DNA of 64,000 nucleotides from Pirellulales bacterium (GTDB lineage Bacteria > Planctomycetota > Planctomycetia > Pirellulales > JAICIG01). Under the pieces are notes generated by a model. The model was not told where the DNA came from and did not search any database. It saw nothing but the letters and a program-made list of their open reading frames with translations. The stretch covers positions 1-64,000 of the forward strand of contig DATLUO010000140.1 of NCBI GenBank assembly GCA_035533075.1. Reading direction: 5' to 3'. Of the stretch, positions 9,942 through 60,785 are shown piece after piece; the first letter of the stretch is position 1, and every line of letters starts with the position of its first letter. Position numbers and translations under genes: made by a program.

Positions 9942-12900
9942 TCAAAAACTTTCGACCGTCACGGCCATCACCACCGGGGCGGTGTGGTCGGGGCCTTTGA
10001 CCAGCTCGATCCGCTCGATCGCGTCGCGGCGGGCGGGGTGGATGGCGAAGTAGCGGATTTGTTGGTTGCGGAGCATGAAGGCCAGCTTCGACTTGGGCAC
10101 CTCGAAGCGGCCGATGTAGTCGGCAAAGTGCTCGCCGTTGCGCAGCGCGTGCTCCTCCGTTTCGCCGTCGGCGTAGTGCAGCCGCACGATCAACGACACG
10201 CTGCCGCCCTTCAGCTCGCCCTGCGCTCCCCAGCCGCTCACGCCGCTGAGGAAATGGACCGCCTTGGCCGGCGCGTTGTACACCAGGCTCACCGACTTGG
10301 GCATCGTCGGCGGGAACTTGCCGGTGGGGCCATAAAGCATCACGGCGTTCGGCACGCGGTCGCCCTGCGGGTCGACAAGCTGGAAGGGCACGCCCTCGAA
10401 CGTCTTCGGCGACCAGTCCGGGAAAATCAGCCGCTCGGCGCCGGCCTCCTTGCTGTAGAACATGCCCTGCGTGCTGACGATCGTCGCCACGCGGCCCAGA
10501 TCGAGCGGCATGAATTGCCCGCGTTGCGTGAGAAACTCCAGCAGATTGACGATCGCCTCCGGCGGCACCTGCTTCTCAAACCCTTCGGGCATGAGCGACT
10601 TCGTCGAAGCCACGAGTTCCTCGATGTTCTCGCGGAGCACGGGGTGCCGCTTGGCTTCGGCGTCGATGAGCTCGATGGCGGTCTTCGTTTCGCCGGCCAA
10701 CAGGCCGTTGAGCACGCGGCCGTCGTCGGTGAGCACGGTGTAGACGCGATAGTTGCCTTCGACGTTGCGGCTGGGGTCGATGATGTGCGTGAGCAGCTCG
10801 GCCTTGGGATGCACGGCCATGCCGGTCAGGTCGGGGCCGATGCGGTTCCCTTCGCCGCTGTGCGTATGGCACTTCAGGCACTGCTGCTTGAACACCTCTT
10901 TGCCGGCCGCGGCATCGCCGCTCTTCTTGGCCAGCGGCAAAAGCTCGTCGAGCACCTTCTGGCGGTCGGGACTCGGCAATCCTTTGTCGCGGGCGAGTAC
11001 CTCCTTGGCCCGCTTGGCGATCTCGCGATCGGGATGCGCGGCGAGCGCCTGTTTCTGATCGAGCGTCAGGTCGGCCAACTGCAACTTGCCCTCGGCCAGC
11101 CCGTCGAGAAACGCGCGCGTCAACGTCGGCCGGCCGAGCAGTACGCGGACCGCCGATCTTTTGGCCGCCGGGGTGAGCACGCCGAACTTTTCGACTAGCG
11201 CCGTGCCGACGTCCTTCGATTCGCTTTGCGCCAGGGCATCGATCAAACCGGCGGAAACGTCGGGCGGAGTGCGCGGCGAGACGATGAGTTCCACCAGCGG
11301 TCCGATCACGTCCGATTGGCCGCCGCGGAAGTCGACAAGCTGCCGGGCGGCCGCAATGCGTTTGTCTTCGCCGAGTTTTTCGTCTCCCACGGCCGCCGTG
11401 AGCGATTGGGCGATTTCGTCGGCGTACTTCTGGAATGTCTCGTTGCCCCAAGCGGTAACGAGCTTGACGAGCTGACCCTGCGGGCCGGTGGCAAGCCGCG
11501 GCAAGATGTTGGCCAGGGCCTTCTCGGCCTCCGCGCTGAGGGCGACTTTTTGGTTTTTCGGCCATCCTTTGGCCAGCCCGGCGATGATCGTCTCGGCCAA
11601 TCGCGGATCGGCGCGGTCGAGCGTCACCAGCAGCGAGTTCACAGAATCGGTCGGCCCACCGCGGGCATAGTGCTCGGCGACGATGGACACCGCCCTTCTG
11701 TAGGGAACGCCCTCCGTGGCGTTCCGCGGGGTGGACGCACCGCCTGGTCCCGGAACGCCACGGAGGGCGTTCCCTACAGAAGCGGGAGGCATCGTCGTCG
11801 TGGCCACCTCCGCGAGAAACGCCCGATCGTGCCTGGCCGCGGCGGCCGTGGCGGCGTCGGGCAACCATTTGTCGAAGAGGTTCTCTGGCCGGAAAAGCAT
11901 GGCGGCAATCGCCCGACCGGCTTTCGTGCTGGCCGGCATCTCCGATAGCGCCAACAGGGCCGCCAGCCGCACCTGAGCGTCGTCGTCGGCAAGCACGCCG
12001 CACGCCAAGATTGCGTCGAGCGATTCTCGGCTTGGCGGCAGCACCGCCACAGCGTTTCGCCGCACGCCGGCCGATGCGTGTCGCATCGCGCCCACCGTCG
12101 CAGCCAGTGCGTCCGAATTCACACCGCCAAGAACTCCCAAGCCCTGCAACGTCCACAAAGCATGAATGGCCGCGGTGTTCAGGCCAAGCTCGTCCACATC
12201 GGGATCTTTCACCAGGTCGAGCAACTGCGGCACCACGTCTTGCTCGCCCCGTTCGACCAGCAGCCGCTGGGCATGCCGTCGCCAGAACAGGTTCGAGTGC
12301 CGCAACGTCTCGACCAGTTCGCCGGCCGTCGCGTCGGCAAGCGAAAACGGCCGATGCCGCGGGGCCGCCGAGTAGACAACCCGATAGATGCGGCCGTGCC
12401 GCTTGTCGCGCAGCTCGGTCTCGTAGGCGCCGCCCTTGCCGGTCTTAAACCCGGCGGGCGTCGGATTGTGCTGCACGATGTAGTTGTACCAGTCGATCAC
12501 CCACACGTGCCCGTCAGGCCCGACCTCCGCCATGATCGGCGCGCTCCACTCGTCGTCGCTCCCCAGCAGGTTGAACGGATTGGTGGAGTGGAAACCGGCG
12601 CCGTCGGGCATCAGGGCAAAGGTGCCCACGAGGTGCCCGGTGCCGTCCGTGACAAAGGCCGTGCGGTTCCAATAGTTTTGCGGATACTCGCGGGCCGTGT
12701 AGAGCGCGTGGCCGGCGGCCGCGGTGTAGCCGCCGTGCTGATCGACCTGGCGGATTTTTTCCGTCGGCGGGTGGAAGAGATAGGTGTCGGCGATGCCGTT
12801 CAACTGGCCGGCCGACCAGCCGCGCACGCCTTCATAGTAGCGGTTGGCGACCGGCAGATATTCGCTCGGATTGCGGTTGGCCGTCGAGCCGAACACCGTC

Positions 12901-14363: not shown

Positions 14364-15271
14364 GATGTACTCCGGGCGTTCGACAGGAGATTTCGATTAT
14401 AGCTTTCGCAAAACGGTTCCGCATCCGTGGCGACCGCCTCGGTCTCGCATTTGCTTGCGGAAAACAACGGCCCTCAGCGTGCGCTGCGTGTTGCAACGTG
14501 TTTCCGCATGGCCAGTTGCAGGCACGCGCCAACGCATCACGAGTCTAGCGCCGAACCGGCTTGTGATGCTCCGTTCGCCTTCCACGGTCTTTGCAAATTT
14601 GCAAAGACCGAAAAACGTGCTGGATTTCGTTACTATCCCCTCACACGAGTGGCATCGATAGCCGTGCCGTGATTTAAGCACCGCGACTGGCCCGGCGGGA
14701 AGCACTGCGATGGTCGGCGGGCAAGGGCCTGCTGCCCGTGGGTGCAAATTTGCACCCGTGGGAAAAAGACGGCGATTTGCTTGTCTCGTACCTCATCAGA
14801 ACGGGCGCCGCTTCGGCTGCGGAAGCTCCCCTGTGGGCGGATGCCAGTCGCCGCGCCAACCCCTTGAGTTTCCGCGCAAACTGGCTTGGGAGGTGCTTTT
14901 TTGGCGGACGTCCGCTCGACGGCTTTTGCAAATTTGCAAAAGCCGCGAAACGCGAGGGATTTGGGCATTCCGTACTCCATCCGTGGGGAACCGTCGCCGG
15001 GGCTTCCCTGAAGCGGAACCGGAACCATCGAACCGTCGCCGTTGATTGCGGACCGCAGTCCAGGTGTTAAACTAAAAAGGGTGCGGTTTCTTGCCGTACT
15101 GCCACACACAATAGCGGACGGCCGAGGACGTGCGGCGCAACAGGGCGGCGATTATCCACGCGGAGCCCAACAGCGACGCGGCCCACACGACGAGCAAACC
15201 GATGGCCTGAAATCCGCGGTCGCCGAAGACGGCGACGAGTGTTGAATCATGCTGGATAAAGGCGGCGGCGG
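14364..15271. repeat. Intergenic region with three palindromes built on the core GCAAATTTGC
   Basis: No convincing gene was found in these ~900 bases. It holds three perfect palindromes centred on GCAAATTTGC: 14585-14610 (26 bases, arms CGGTCTTTGCAAA), 14740-14757 (18 bases, arms GGGTGCAAA) and 14920-14945 (26 bases, arms CGGCTTTTGCAAA). Each is followed by a loosely conserved tail of the form GAAAAA-n-GGATTT-n-TCTCGTA. The outer arm bases differ between copies but stay complementary. Two more copies lie at 61072-61099 and 61648-61674. The spacer also separates the divergent starts at 14363 (minus) and 15272 (plus), so promoters for both genes should be here, but none could be assigned with confidence. 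Confidence 0.75.
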
Positions 15272-16124: not shown

Positions 16125-16154
16125 TTTCCATCCGCAACCGGTTGCGGATGGAAA
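16125..16154. promoter_or_regulatory. Perfect 30-base palindrome between two convergent genes
   Basis: TTTCCATCCGCAACC (16125-16139) is followed directly by its exact reverse complement with no loop. It lies between the stop of the multi-HTH regulator (15970) and the stop of the BatA/VWA gene (16182). It could be a bidirectional terminator, although there is no spacer for an RNA loop and no T-tract, or a binding site for a dimeric regulator. Confidence 0.5.
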
Positions 16155-18378: not shown

Positions 18379-18540
<162 letters not shown>

Positions 18541-59830: not shown

Positions 59831-59968
59831 ACGCTCTATTTTCTCGACGTGGAAGGCCAGATTCGCTTCAAGTCGCTCGGTTCGCCGGGCGATGCCACGG
59901 TTGACAAGTGGGTCGAGACGTTGCTGGTCGAGGCCGGCGAGACGTTGCCGGAAACAGCGCAAGAGTGA
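59831..59968 (+). pseudogene. C-terminal stub of a TlpA/thioredoxin-like protein
   Basis: In the same frame as the polyprenyl synthase and directly after its stop, 45 codons read TLYFLDVEGQIRFKSLGSPG and then DATVDKWVETLLVEAGETL. This resembles the last strand and helix of TlpA/peroxiredoxin-like proteins ('(T/S)-(Y/F)-(L/V)-(I/L)-D-x-(E/D)-G-x-I-(R/V)-(Y/F)-K ... L-x-x-x-(L/V)-x-x-L'). There is no start codon or ribosome binding site and the CxxC half is missing, so it is a leftover of a rearrangement. A readthrough product is conceivable but unproven. Confidence 0.5.
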
Positions 59969-59980
59969 GTAGGTCGTTCC

Positions 59981-60235
59981 GCGCGAGGAAAGCCGTTTAC
60001 CTCGCCACCATGCGACGCGCGTGTCGCATCGGCGCGCGCTGCCGCAGACTACGGGCCGCCGGCAAAAGCGTCGCGCGCGACGCTTTGCCGACCGTAGCCC
60101 TTTCGCTCCGCGAGAGGAAAGCCGTTTACTCCGCCGCGCATGCGACACGCGTGTCGCCTCGGCAGGTGCTGCCGGAGACGAACGGGCCGCCGTCACTTTG
60201 GCCGCGCGCGGCCAAAGTGAGCGGCATGCCGAATG
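59981..60235. repeat. Tandem pair of ~129-bp units with covarying palindromes
   Basis: Unit 1 begins GCGCGAGGAAAGCCGTTTAC at 59981, and unit 2 begins GCGAGAGGAAAGCCGTTTAC at about 60110, both followed by CGCC and a GCGAC-n-GTCGC palindrome. Each unit then has a strong palindrome at the same place, but with different sequence: GCGTCGCGCGCGACGC in unit 1 (near 60068-60083) and a 26-base perfect one (CACTTTGGCCGCG and its complement, 60194-60219) in unit 2. The end of unit 2 is read as the C-terminus of the minus-strand gene 60126-60785. Confidence 0.75.
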
Positions 60236-60785
60236 GTGCCCCGCCGACGGTCGAATCGCAAACCATTATGCGCGAAAGCTTTACGCTTCCGCGACGGATA
60301 ACGCCGACCGGATTTGTGGCCCCGCTGACGTTCGTCTCCGTCGACCCTCCGCGGGCGATGCTCAGAAACCGCGGGTCGCCGTTCTGTTCGCGAACGGTCT
60401 GTTCGACGACGGTGGTCACGGGCAGGGCCTCGCCGCCGGCCGTGGCCTTGCGTCGGGCGGTGCGTTCTTTCTTGATTTCGCGGTTTTGGCGGCTGCGCGC
60501 GAAGCTGGCCATCGACTCATCCCACAGCGTCTCCCAGCGCCGCGCGCAGCGCAGCCGCAGGCTTTGGGCCAGGGGATGTTCGGGGTGGGCGGCGAGCCAG
60601 GCTTCGACACGCGCGGCGATTTGGGCGACTCGCTGCTGCGACAAGGCGTGTGCCGCGGCCACGTGCAGTTGCGTCTCGCCGCGCAGGATATGTTGTTCGT
60701 AGATTCCGCAATCGCGCTGGCTGGGCGGCCGTTCGTCCGCCGTCGTGCGTTTGACGGGTGGCTGCGTCTTTTCTCGCTTGGGCAT
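60126..60785 (-). CDS. Hypothetical protein, 219 aa, with a repeat-derived C-terminus
   Basis: Residues 1-~150 look like a genuine soluble protein: a lysine-rich start (MPKREKTQPPVKRTTADERP), a helix-turn-helix-like YEQHILRGETQLHVAAAHAL followed by SQQRVAQIAARVEAWLAAHP, then an Arg/Lys-rich helix (SRQNREIKKERTARRKA) and VTTVVEQTVREQNGDPRFLS. This resembles small planctomycete proteins with a possible DNA-binding or terminase-small-subunit-like fold; no family is claimed. The last ~35 residues (LTLAARGQSDGGPFVSGSTC, then RGDTRVACAAE) are encoded by the 129-bp tandem repeat unit and differ in character from the rest, so the original stop was probably upstream (near 60230) and was lost. Confidence 0.55.
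   Translation of the reverse strand: MPKREKTQPPVKRTTADERPPSQRDCGIYEQHILRGETQLHVAAAHALSQQRVAQIAARVEAWLAAHPEHPLAQSLRLRCARRWETLWDESMASFARSRQNREIKKERTARRKATAGGEALPVTTVVEQTVREQNGDPRFLSIARGGSTETNVSGATNPVGVIRRGSVKLSRIMVCDSTVGGAPFGMPLTLAARGQSDGGPFVSGSTCRGDTRVACAAE

Follow-up and report, generated by a model that had tools for sequence, protein, structure and literature searches.

The window analysed here is a stretch of 64,000 nucleotides on contig C140 of the 8.54-Mb, 296-contig assembly of a Pirellulales bacterium (99% complete, 2.7% contamination), and at positions 59,981 to 60,235 it carries two tandem units of a palindrome-rich repeat. That these units share a start was claimed in the original prediction, and both indeed open with GAGGAAAGCCGTTTAC, at 59985 and 60114, or 129 apart; in the repeat search the spacing is 129-131, the spread coming from small indels. 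The GCGAC...GTCGC palindrome (P1) predicted for both is found in both, with one G.T pair in the copy of unit 1. As had also been proposed, a second palindrome (P2) differs between the units and is fully self-complementary in each, over 22 bases in the first and 28 in the second. The hairpin at the unit junction (P3), a repetitive extragenic palindrome (REP) tagged with GTAG, had been overlooked; no other feature says as much about the nature of the unit. The 266-nt stretch spanning both units folds with z = -4.6, none of 200 shuffles being as good, and the 255-base stretch is matched 109 times across its genome, so the structure is not due to chance; the opposite strand also folds strongly (z = -4.4). 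The features of the locus are listed in Table 1.

Table 1. Positions of the two units, their palindromes and the flanking sequences in the window.
Feature	Position	Strand	Remark
Upstream gene remnant, 44 in-frame codons, then a TGA stop (59966-59968)	59834..59968	+	directly before the array
Probable decayed GTAG-REP, GTAGGTCGTTCCGCGCGAGG	59969..59988	+	at the array's left end; 20 nt long, where intact copies have 24; judged by comparison with other REPs
Unit 1	59985..60107	+	profile segment
P1 of unit 1, GCGACGCGCGTGTCGC	60012..60027	+	one G.T pair
H of unit 1, small hairpin CGGCGCGCGCTGCCG	60030..60044	+	
P2 of unit 1, AAAGCGTCGCGCGCGACGCTTT	60065..60086	+	perfect 22-base palindrome
P3, GTAG-tagged REP hairpin GTAGCCCTTTCGCTCCGCGAGAGG	60094..60117	+	unit junction
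Unit 2	60112..60219	+	final unit of the array; ends after P2, like other loci
P1 of unit 2, GCGACACGCGTGTCGC	60142..60157	+	perfect 16-mer palindrome
H of unit 2, small hairpin CGGCAGGTGCTGCCG	60160..60174	+	
P2 of unit 2, TCACTTTGGCCGCGCGCGGCCAAAGTGA	60193..60220	+	perfect 28-base palindrome
Conserved array tail	60220..60298	+	first 79 nt recognisable, 76% to tail consensus; diverged up to 60351
Read-through frame of the gene fragment, 219 codons	60126..60785	-	runs via the tail and unit 2
5' fragment of a multi-copy gene, ~145 of 373 codons	60352..60785	-	homology break at 60352

A search for further units, suggested with the original prediction, showed that the repeat is widespread in its genome. 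From the surroundings of the genome matches 38 stretches were taken, and in these and the window (39 sequences) an iterated profile made 143 matches in 37 sequences. Once overlaps are removed, 89 segments remain, among them 56 nearly full ones, at 25 loci. The unit is ~131 bp long and consists of the junction hairpin P3, the fixed palindrome P1, a small hairpin H and the variable palindrome P2. The longest array has 10 segments (L035). Within any one array the units run in one direction; L053 and L049 have decayed segments in both directions. In most arrays whose right end was covered, the end unit stops at unit position 107, directly after P2, and a conserved tail follows; decayed copies, for example L053, L056 and L061 to L065, are among the exceptions. 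This tail has 29 matches in the genome; its better-preserved copies are recognisable for ~170 to 210 nt, and some copies are interrupted by other elements. Across the copies compared it has no constant right end, which is why retroposition with a defined 3' terminus was discarded. The first units of arrays begin at many unit positions, with no constant left end. Since seven arrays (L038, L039, L042, L047, L054, L058 and L064) run to within ~20 nt of the edge of their contig, long arrays were probably broken by assembly, and the units there need caution. A family search in 38 relatives gave, besides the own genome, only short weak matches in two (G012 and G032), and a pattern scan of a genome contig collection, from which the own genome may be left out, gave no match. 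The repeat family is lineage-specific, the full unit being present only in its own genome among those searched.

The arrays form mosaics with further interspersed repeats of the genome. An element resembling a miniature inverted-repeat transposable element (MITE), GTAAAGCTTCGCCGAACCCG...CTTTAC, lies in or after array tails at L031, L032, L037, L048, L050 and L060, and its L032 copy is flanked by an apparent 8-bp duplication, AACGGATA. Another interspersed repeat (CCACCATTGGCCAACTGACAGATTCTGTCAG...), with 37 matches in the genome (G000) including C249:21815-21994, stands both before and after arrays. By eye, the tail appears to hold an inverted CTAC-tagged hairpin. A diverged sub-family at L061, L062 and L063 has P1 together with a P2 of the type of window unit 1 (GGCAAAAGCGTCGCGCGCGACGCTTTTGCC).

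For comparison of the units, nine of the 56 nearly full ones were dropped as having no recognisable junction, leaving 47. Eight with large indels (L035:3140, L045:2556, both of L053, both of L054, L056 and L057) were left out of the alignment, and unit 1 of the window, one of the nine, was added back. All pair counts given below refer to the resulting 40 rows, in which mean column identity is 82%.

P3 is composed of GTAG, one base, an 8-bp stem and the 3-base loop TCC, with a variant of 9 bp and the loop GG. The tag reads GTAG in 31 rows, GTGG in 4 and GTCG in 3, two rows being without a full tag, and 97.8% of stem cells are paired. Like GTAG REPs, P3 has an unpaired GTAG or GTGG 5' of the stem, a stem within 6-13 bp and a short loop, as well as a high copy number and a place mainly outside genes by the 3' ends of open reading frames (ORFs). 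Its format matches the one published, in the text available, by Di Nocera et al. 2013 (PMC3733652), and the REP of S. maltophilia, described in the accessible part of its report with an 8-bp stem and a 3-nt loop, is close to it (PMC8266576). REPs of the types GTAGCCCGCTTGCTCCGCAAGCGG and GTAGCCCGCTCGCTCCGCGAGCGG are located on both sides of a Y1_Tnp gene on contig C26 (L192, 7 REPs), and the P3 type GTAGCCCTCTCGCTCCGCGAGAGG is one compensated pair apart from GTAGCCCGCTCGCTCCGCGAGCGG. A pattern covering both REP types has 140 matches in the own genome and none in a backward control; among the other 56 genomes, G023 and G030 have two each. The C26 protein matches the NCBIfam model of the REP-associated tyrosine transposase (RAYT) at 8.6e-19 and 67.9 bits, below the cut-off of 80, and on this similarity appears RAYT-like. 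Because of the GTAG hairpin at the junction, the related REPs at the Y1_Tnp gene and the 140 pattern matches against none, we read the array as a probable head-to-tail REP cluster with ~107 bp of extra DNA per unit. A second GTAG-REP family (GTAGGGAACGCCCTCCGTGGCGTTCC) is found at 11699-11751 and 61035 of the window and adjoins another Y1_Tnp gene in L194.

The GTAG-tagged REP super-family, which is listed in Planctomycetes, shares with P3 the tag, the 8-bp stem and the 3-base loop, and shares with the family the high copy number, the place behind genes and the tandem clusters with flanking DNA, which large REP clusters carry along (PMC3733652, in the part accessible). In contrast to that super-family, the arrays described here are head-to-tail only, and their extra ~107 bp per unit hold two further palindromes, one fixed in its letters and one in structure only. 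Tandem REP arrays of P. fluorescens SBW25 likewise have regular spacing, constant spacers and near-identical arrays at several places, whereas a variable palindrome with matching arms is not mentioned in the available sections of that study (PMC3116915).

In the 40 rows, the structure tested pairs in 96.6% of cells compared with 93.0% in shuffles. Eight pairs have changed on both sides (3.8 in shuffles), and the doubly changed cells number 39, against 10.1 ± 2.5 in shuffles, none of 500 being as high. Slid control structures gave at most 5 pairs and 8 cells doubly changed, in a comparison that favours the tested structure, as this was drawn from one aligned sequence. Double changes were found in 7 of the 12 pairs of P2, 1 of 5 in H, and none of the 7 in P1 or the 8 in P3. 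P1 is exact in 32 rows and has 76 copies genome-wide; among 145 other genomes of the order it occurs in one (G001), and a literature search for its 16-mer gave no paper. H covaries weakly (V 0.29, with 9 of 40 cells unpaired at the variable pair). In P2, by comparison, partner columns are coupled with V of 0.74, 0.68, 0.76, 0.49 and 0.59, and column 122 is more strongly linked with its partner, 129 (0.74), than with 118 or 119 (0.27-0.28); all 12 pairs are Watson-Crick, with no gap, in 22 units.

Changes in P2 also appear between units whose remaining sequence is similar. P2 differs on both arms in two of four comparisons of units that are 0-3 background differences apart, and in 56% of 39 comparisons at 4-7 differences. 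The closest pair (L037 and L048) differs in one background column and in one P2 pair, changed on both sides. On the background tree the most variable P2 pair has 13 state changes, compared with 13.5 when shuffled; as the states of this pair scatter as if shuffled, P2 is decoupled from its surroundings. It is conceivable, although we hold it to be doubtful in this full form, that P1 is kept letter by letter while all that is preserved of P2 is a self-matching hairpin, its two arms changing in concert and independently of the surrounding unit.

We put at about two in three the probability that the family is a composite, REP-based head-to-tail repeat that was spread by a RAYT and enlarged by recombination or slippage, with P1 kept by its letters and P2 by its pairing. 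On this view a RAYT (TnpA-REP), working on hairpins in their single-stranded form, would have spread the copies as non-autonomous elements, and the arrays would have been lengthened and reshuffled as units recombined or slipped against each other. The letters of P1 may be held as the site of a protein or enzyme. P2 arms that came to differ would be matched again mainly by template switching within the hairpin during replication, and selection for the hairpin perhaps helps. Template switching of this kind can restore pairing and invert loops, according to the accessible text of PMC8794818, and acting on chimeric arms it would yield the P2 sequences observed. The loop of P3 reads CGCT-GGAGCG in 12 of the 40 units against the common CGCTCC-GCG, and since GGAGCG is the reverse complement of CGCTCC, we interpret the inversion as a probable template-switch footprint. 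The case in PMC8794818, as far as the text available goes, shares the stem-keeping double changes and the loop inversion; it concerns RNA genes across species, whereas the changes here lie inside the repeat family of one genome.

Several points weigh against this reading. At least one non-Watson-Crick P2 pair is present in 16 of the 40 units (one pair in 10, two in 5, four in 1), so the pairing of P2 is a tendency, and these imperfect units include chimeras that join the arms of two P2 types. Unpaired arms had been named in the original prediction as the case that would speak against a maintained hairpin, and they do occur. Its expectation that arms match within units and vary between them holds far beyond chance in the double changes, and fails in the imperfect units. 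For the idea of an element that rebuilds palindromes, the inverted P3 loop speaks in favour, and the chimeric P2 arms are compatible with it. Linear linkage is also present inside P2 (V 0.91 for columns 122-125 and 0.99 for 118-119, with 135-136 also tight). The inverted loop of P3 may have arisen once and then been multiplied by copying, and allele exchange between units could move matched P2 arms without any mending. As arrays have no constant left end, no precise mobile unit is established. At the 12 Y1_Tnp loci of the own genome, moreover, the unit profile gave no match; no RAYT is therefore flanked by the unit itself, and RAYT mobility is a matter of inference.

Exchange between units is central to a different explanation, in which the array is a functionless, satellite-like mosaic, its palindromes are by-products of hairpin-driven mutation, and P2 is explained by exchange. 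The near absence of linkage between sites outside P2 (median V 0.0), the shuffled-like scatter of the most variable P2 pair, and the finding that the nearest relative of 34 of the 40 units lies in another array would all agree with this, as would the degraded state of arrays and their interruption by other repeats. Neutrality predicts otherwise for P1, however, which stays nearly letter-perfect while the rest drifts, and we consider such a mosaic unlikely.

The position of arrays relative to genes was determined with a home-made gene caller for 39 arrays. Twelve begin no farther than 62 nt from a gene on the same strand, counted from its 3' end, and one begins as near to an opposite-strand frame, which is short and weak (65 codons); a binomial calculation by hand gives p of about 0.002 for 12 versus 1. 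The remaining arrays are farther off, overlap a called frame or lie at a contig end. At L048 the upstream gene stops on the TAG inside GTAG (distance 15). Published GTAG-REPs, in the part of PMC3733652 available, are also near gene 3' ends, supply TAG stops from GTAG and occur in tandem with flanking DNA.

The sense orientation behind genes could mean that selection acts at the RNA level, the array being transcribed as the 3' untranslated region of the gene ahead of it, with hairpins that block exonucleases or end transcription and with compensatory mutations following. The strong predicted folds would suit this, and so would the T-G pair that dominates in P3 on the + strand (33 of the 40 rows), a valid G-U pair in the transcript; GT pairs in published REP stems are interpreted likewise (PMC3733652, accessible part). 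The non-Watson-Crick cells of P2, however, are 3 G.T against 7 A.C and thus show no bias towards G.U in a + transcript, so that an RNA reading drawn from P2 was not supported, and in the window sequence P2 is not followed by the U-run that an intrinsic terminator would have. We regard RNA-level selection as unlikely, though not negligible. No described RNA family of Rfam 15 scored above the gathering threshold in the 64-kb window.

In bacterial interspersed mosaic elements (BIMEs) and REP doublets forming hairpins (REPINs), REPs stand in alternating or inverted orientation. Our arrays resemble both in having palindromic units in mosaics and a RAYT-like gene in the genome, but were not assigned to them, as all units of an array point one way. 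A MITE was rejected for lack of terminal inverted repeats and constant termini, left ends lying at many unit positions and right ends varying; a clustered regularly interspaced short palindromic repeat (CRISPR) array was rejected as the entire unit is conserved, without unique spacers; and an integron attC site, judged by eye and without an Rfam match, was dropped as well. A modular element independent of RAYT, in which the end modules are fixed and the inner units vary in number, would be comparable to the pneumococcal boxA-(boxB)n-boxC, whose description, in the part available, shares the variable inner tandem modules and the fixed end module (PMC3049150). The arrays are indeed interspersed and strongly structured, and have a variable unit number and a fixed right tail. 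BOX elements require fixed modules on both sides, however, whereas the left ends here are variable, first units starting at many positions, and the GTAG-REP, with which the arrays differ from BOX, points to a RAYT instead; we think this explanation very unlikely.

Where both arms of a palindrome change to match, a hairpin at work in RNA or DNA is usually taken as proven. A single genome that holds dozens of copies, alike in background and with palindromes that differ yet mostly match, could help to separate selection from mutation that mends hairpins. If P1 is indeed kept by its letters and P2 by self-matching alone, P2 would be a natural record of template-switch hairpin mending within a bacterial genome, possibly tied to single-stranded stages of RAYT-driven spread. 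The family adds a composite unit, in a Pirellulales-like lineage, to the tandem REP clusters; the lineage was judged from its polyprenyl synthase, whose closest relatives, at up to 63% identity, come from Pirellulales and other Planctomycetota. We would like to stress that the point of interest is that one unit combines a palindrome fixed in its letters with another kept in structure alone; this is no new class of system.

On the flanks of the array, the upstream gene remnant has a single match in the own genome, and thus no second copy, no homologue in 80 relative loci and no Pfam family. Downstream, residues 1-146 of the minus-strand ORF at 60126-60785, which has no Pfam family and no NCBIfam family above cut-off, match a multi-copy protein whose C170 copy has 373 codons. 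DNA identity of 94-96% to two other copies of the gene stops at 60352, so the array with its tail borders on a truncated gene, and ~73 codons at the end of the frame are read-through of other DNA, mostly the repeat. It is therefore misleading to describe unit 2 as having turned into a gene's tail. With the truncated gene on one side and the 44-codon remnant on the other, the array marks a rearrangement junction. The multi-copy gene (L199, L203, L204 and L198) has ~365-392 codons and many fragments in the genome; its N-terminus looks helix-turn-helix-like by eye, and its 'DAKVRRRGY' motif presumably resembles those of PD-(D/E)xK nucleases.

Elsewhere in the window, long perfect palindromes are found at 14585-14610, 14920-14945 and 16125-16154, two of them centred on TTGCAAATTTGCAA, and 7-base tandem repeats of different units at 18395, 19580, 37244, 41222, 58176, 60811 and 61952.
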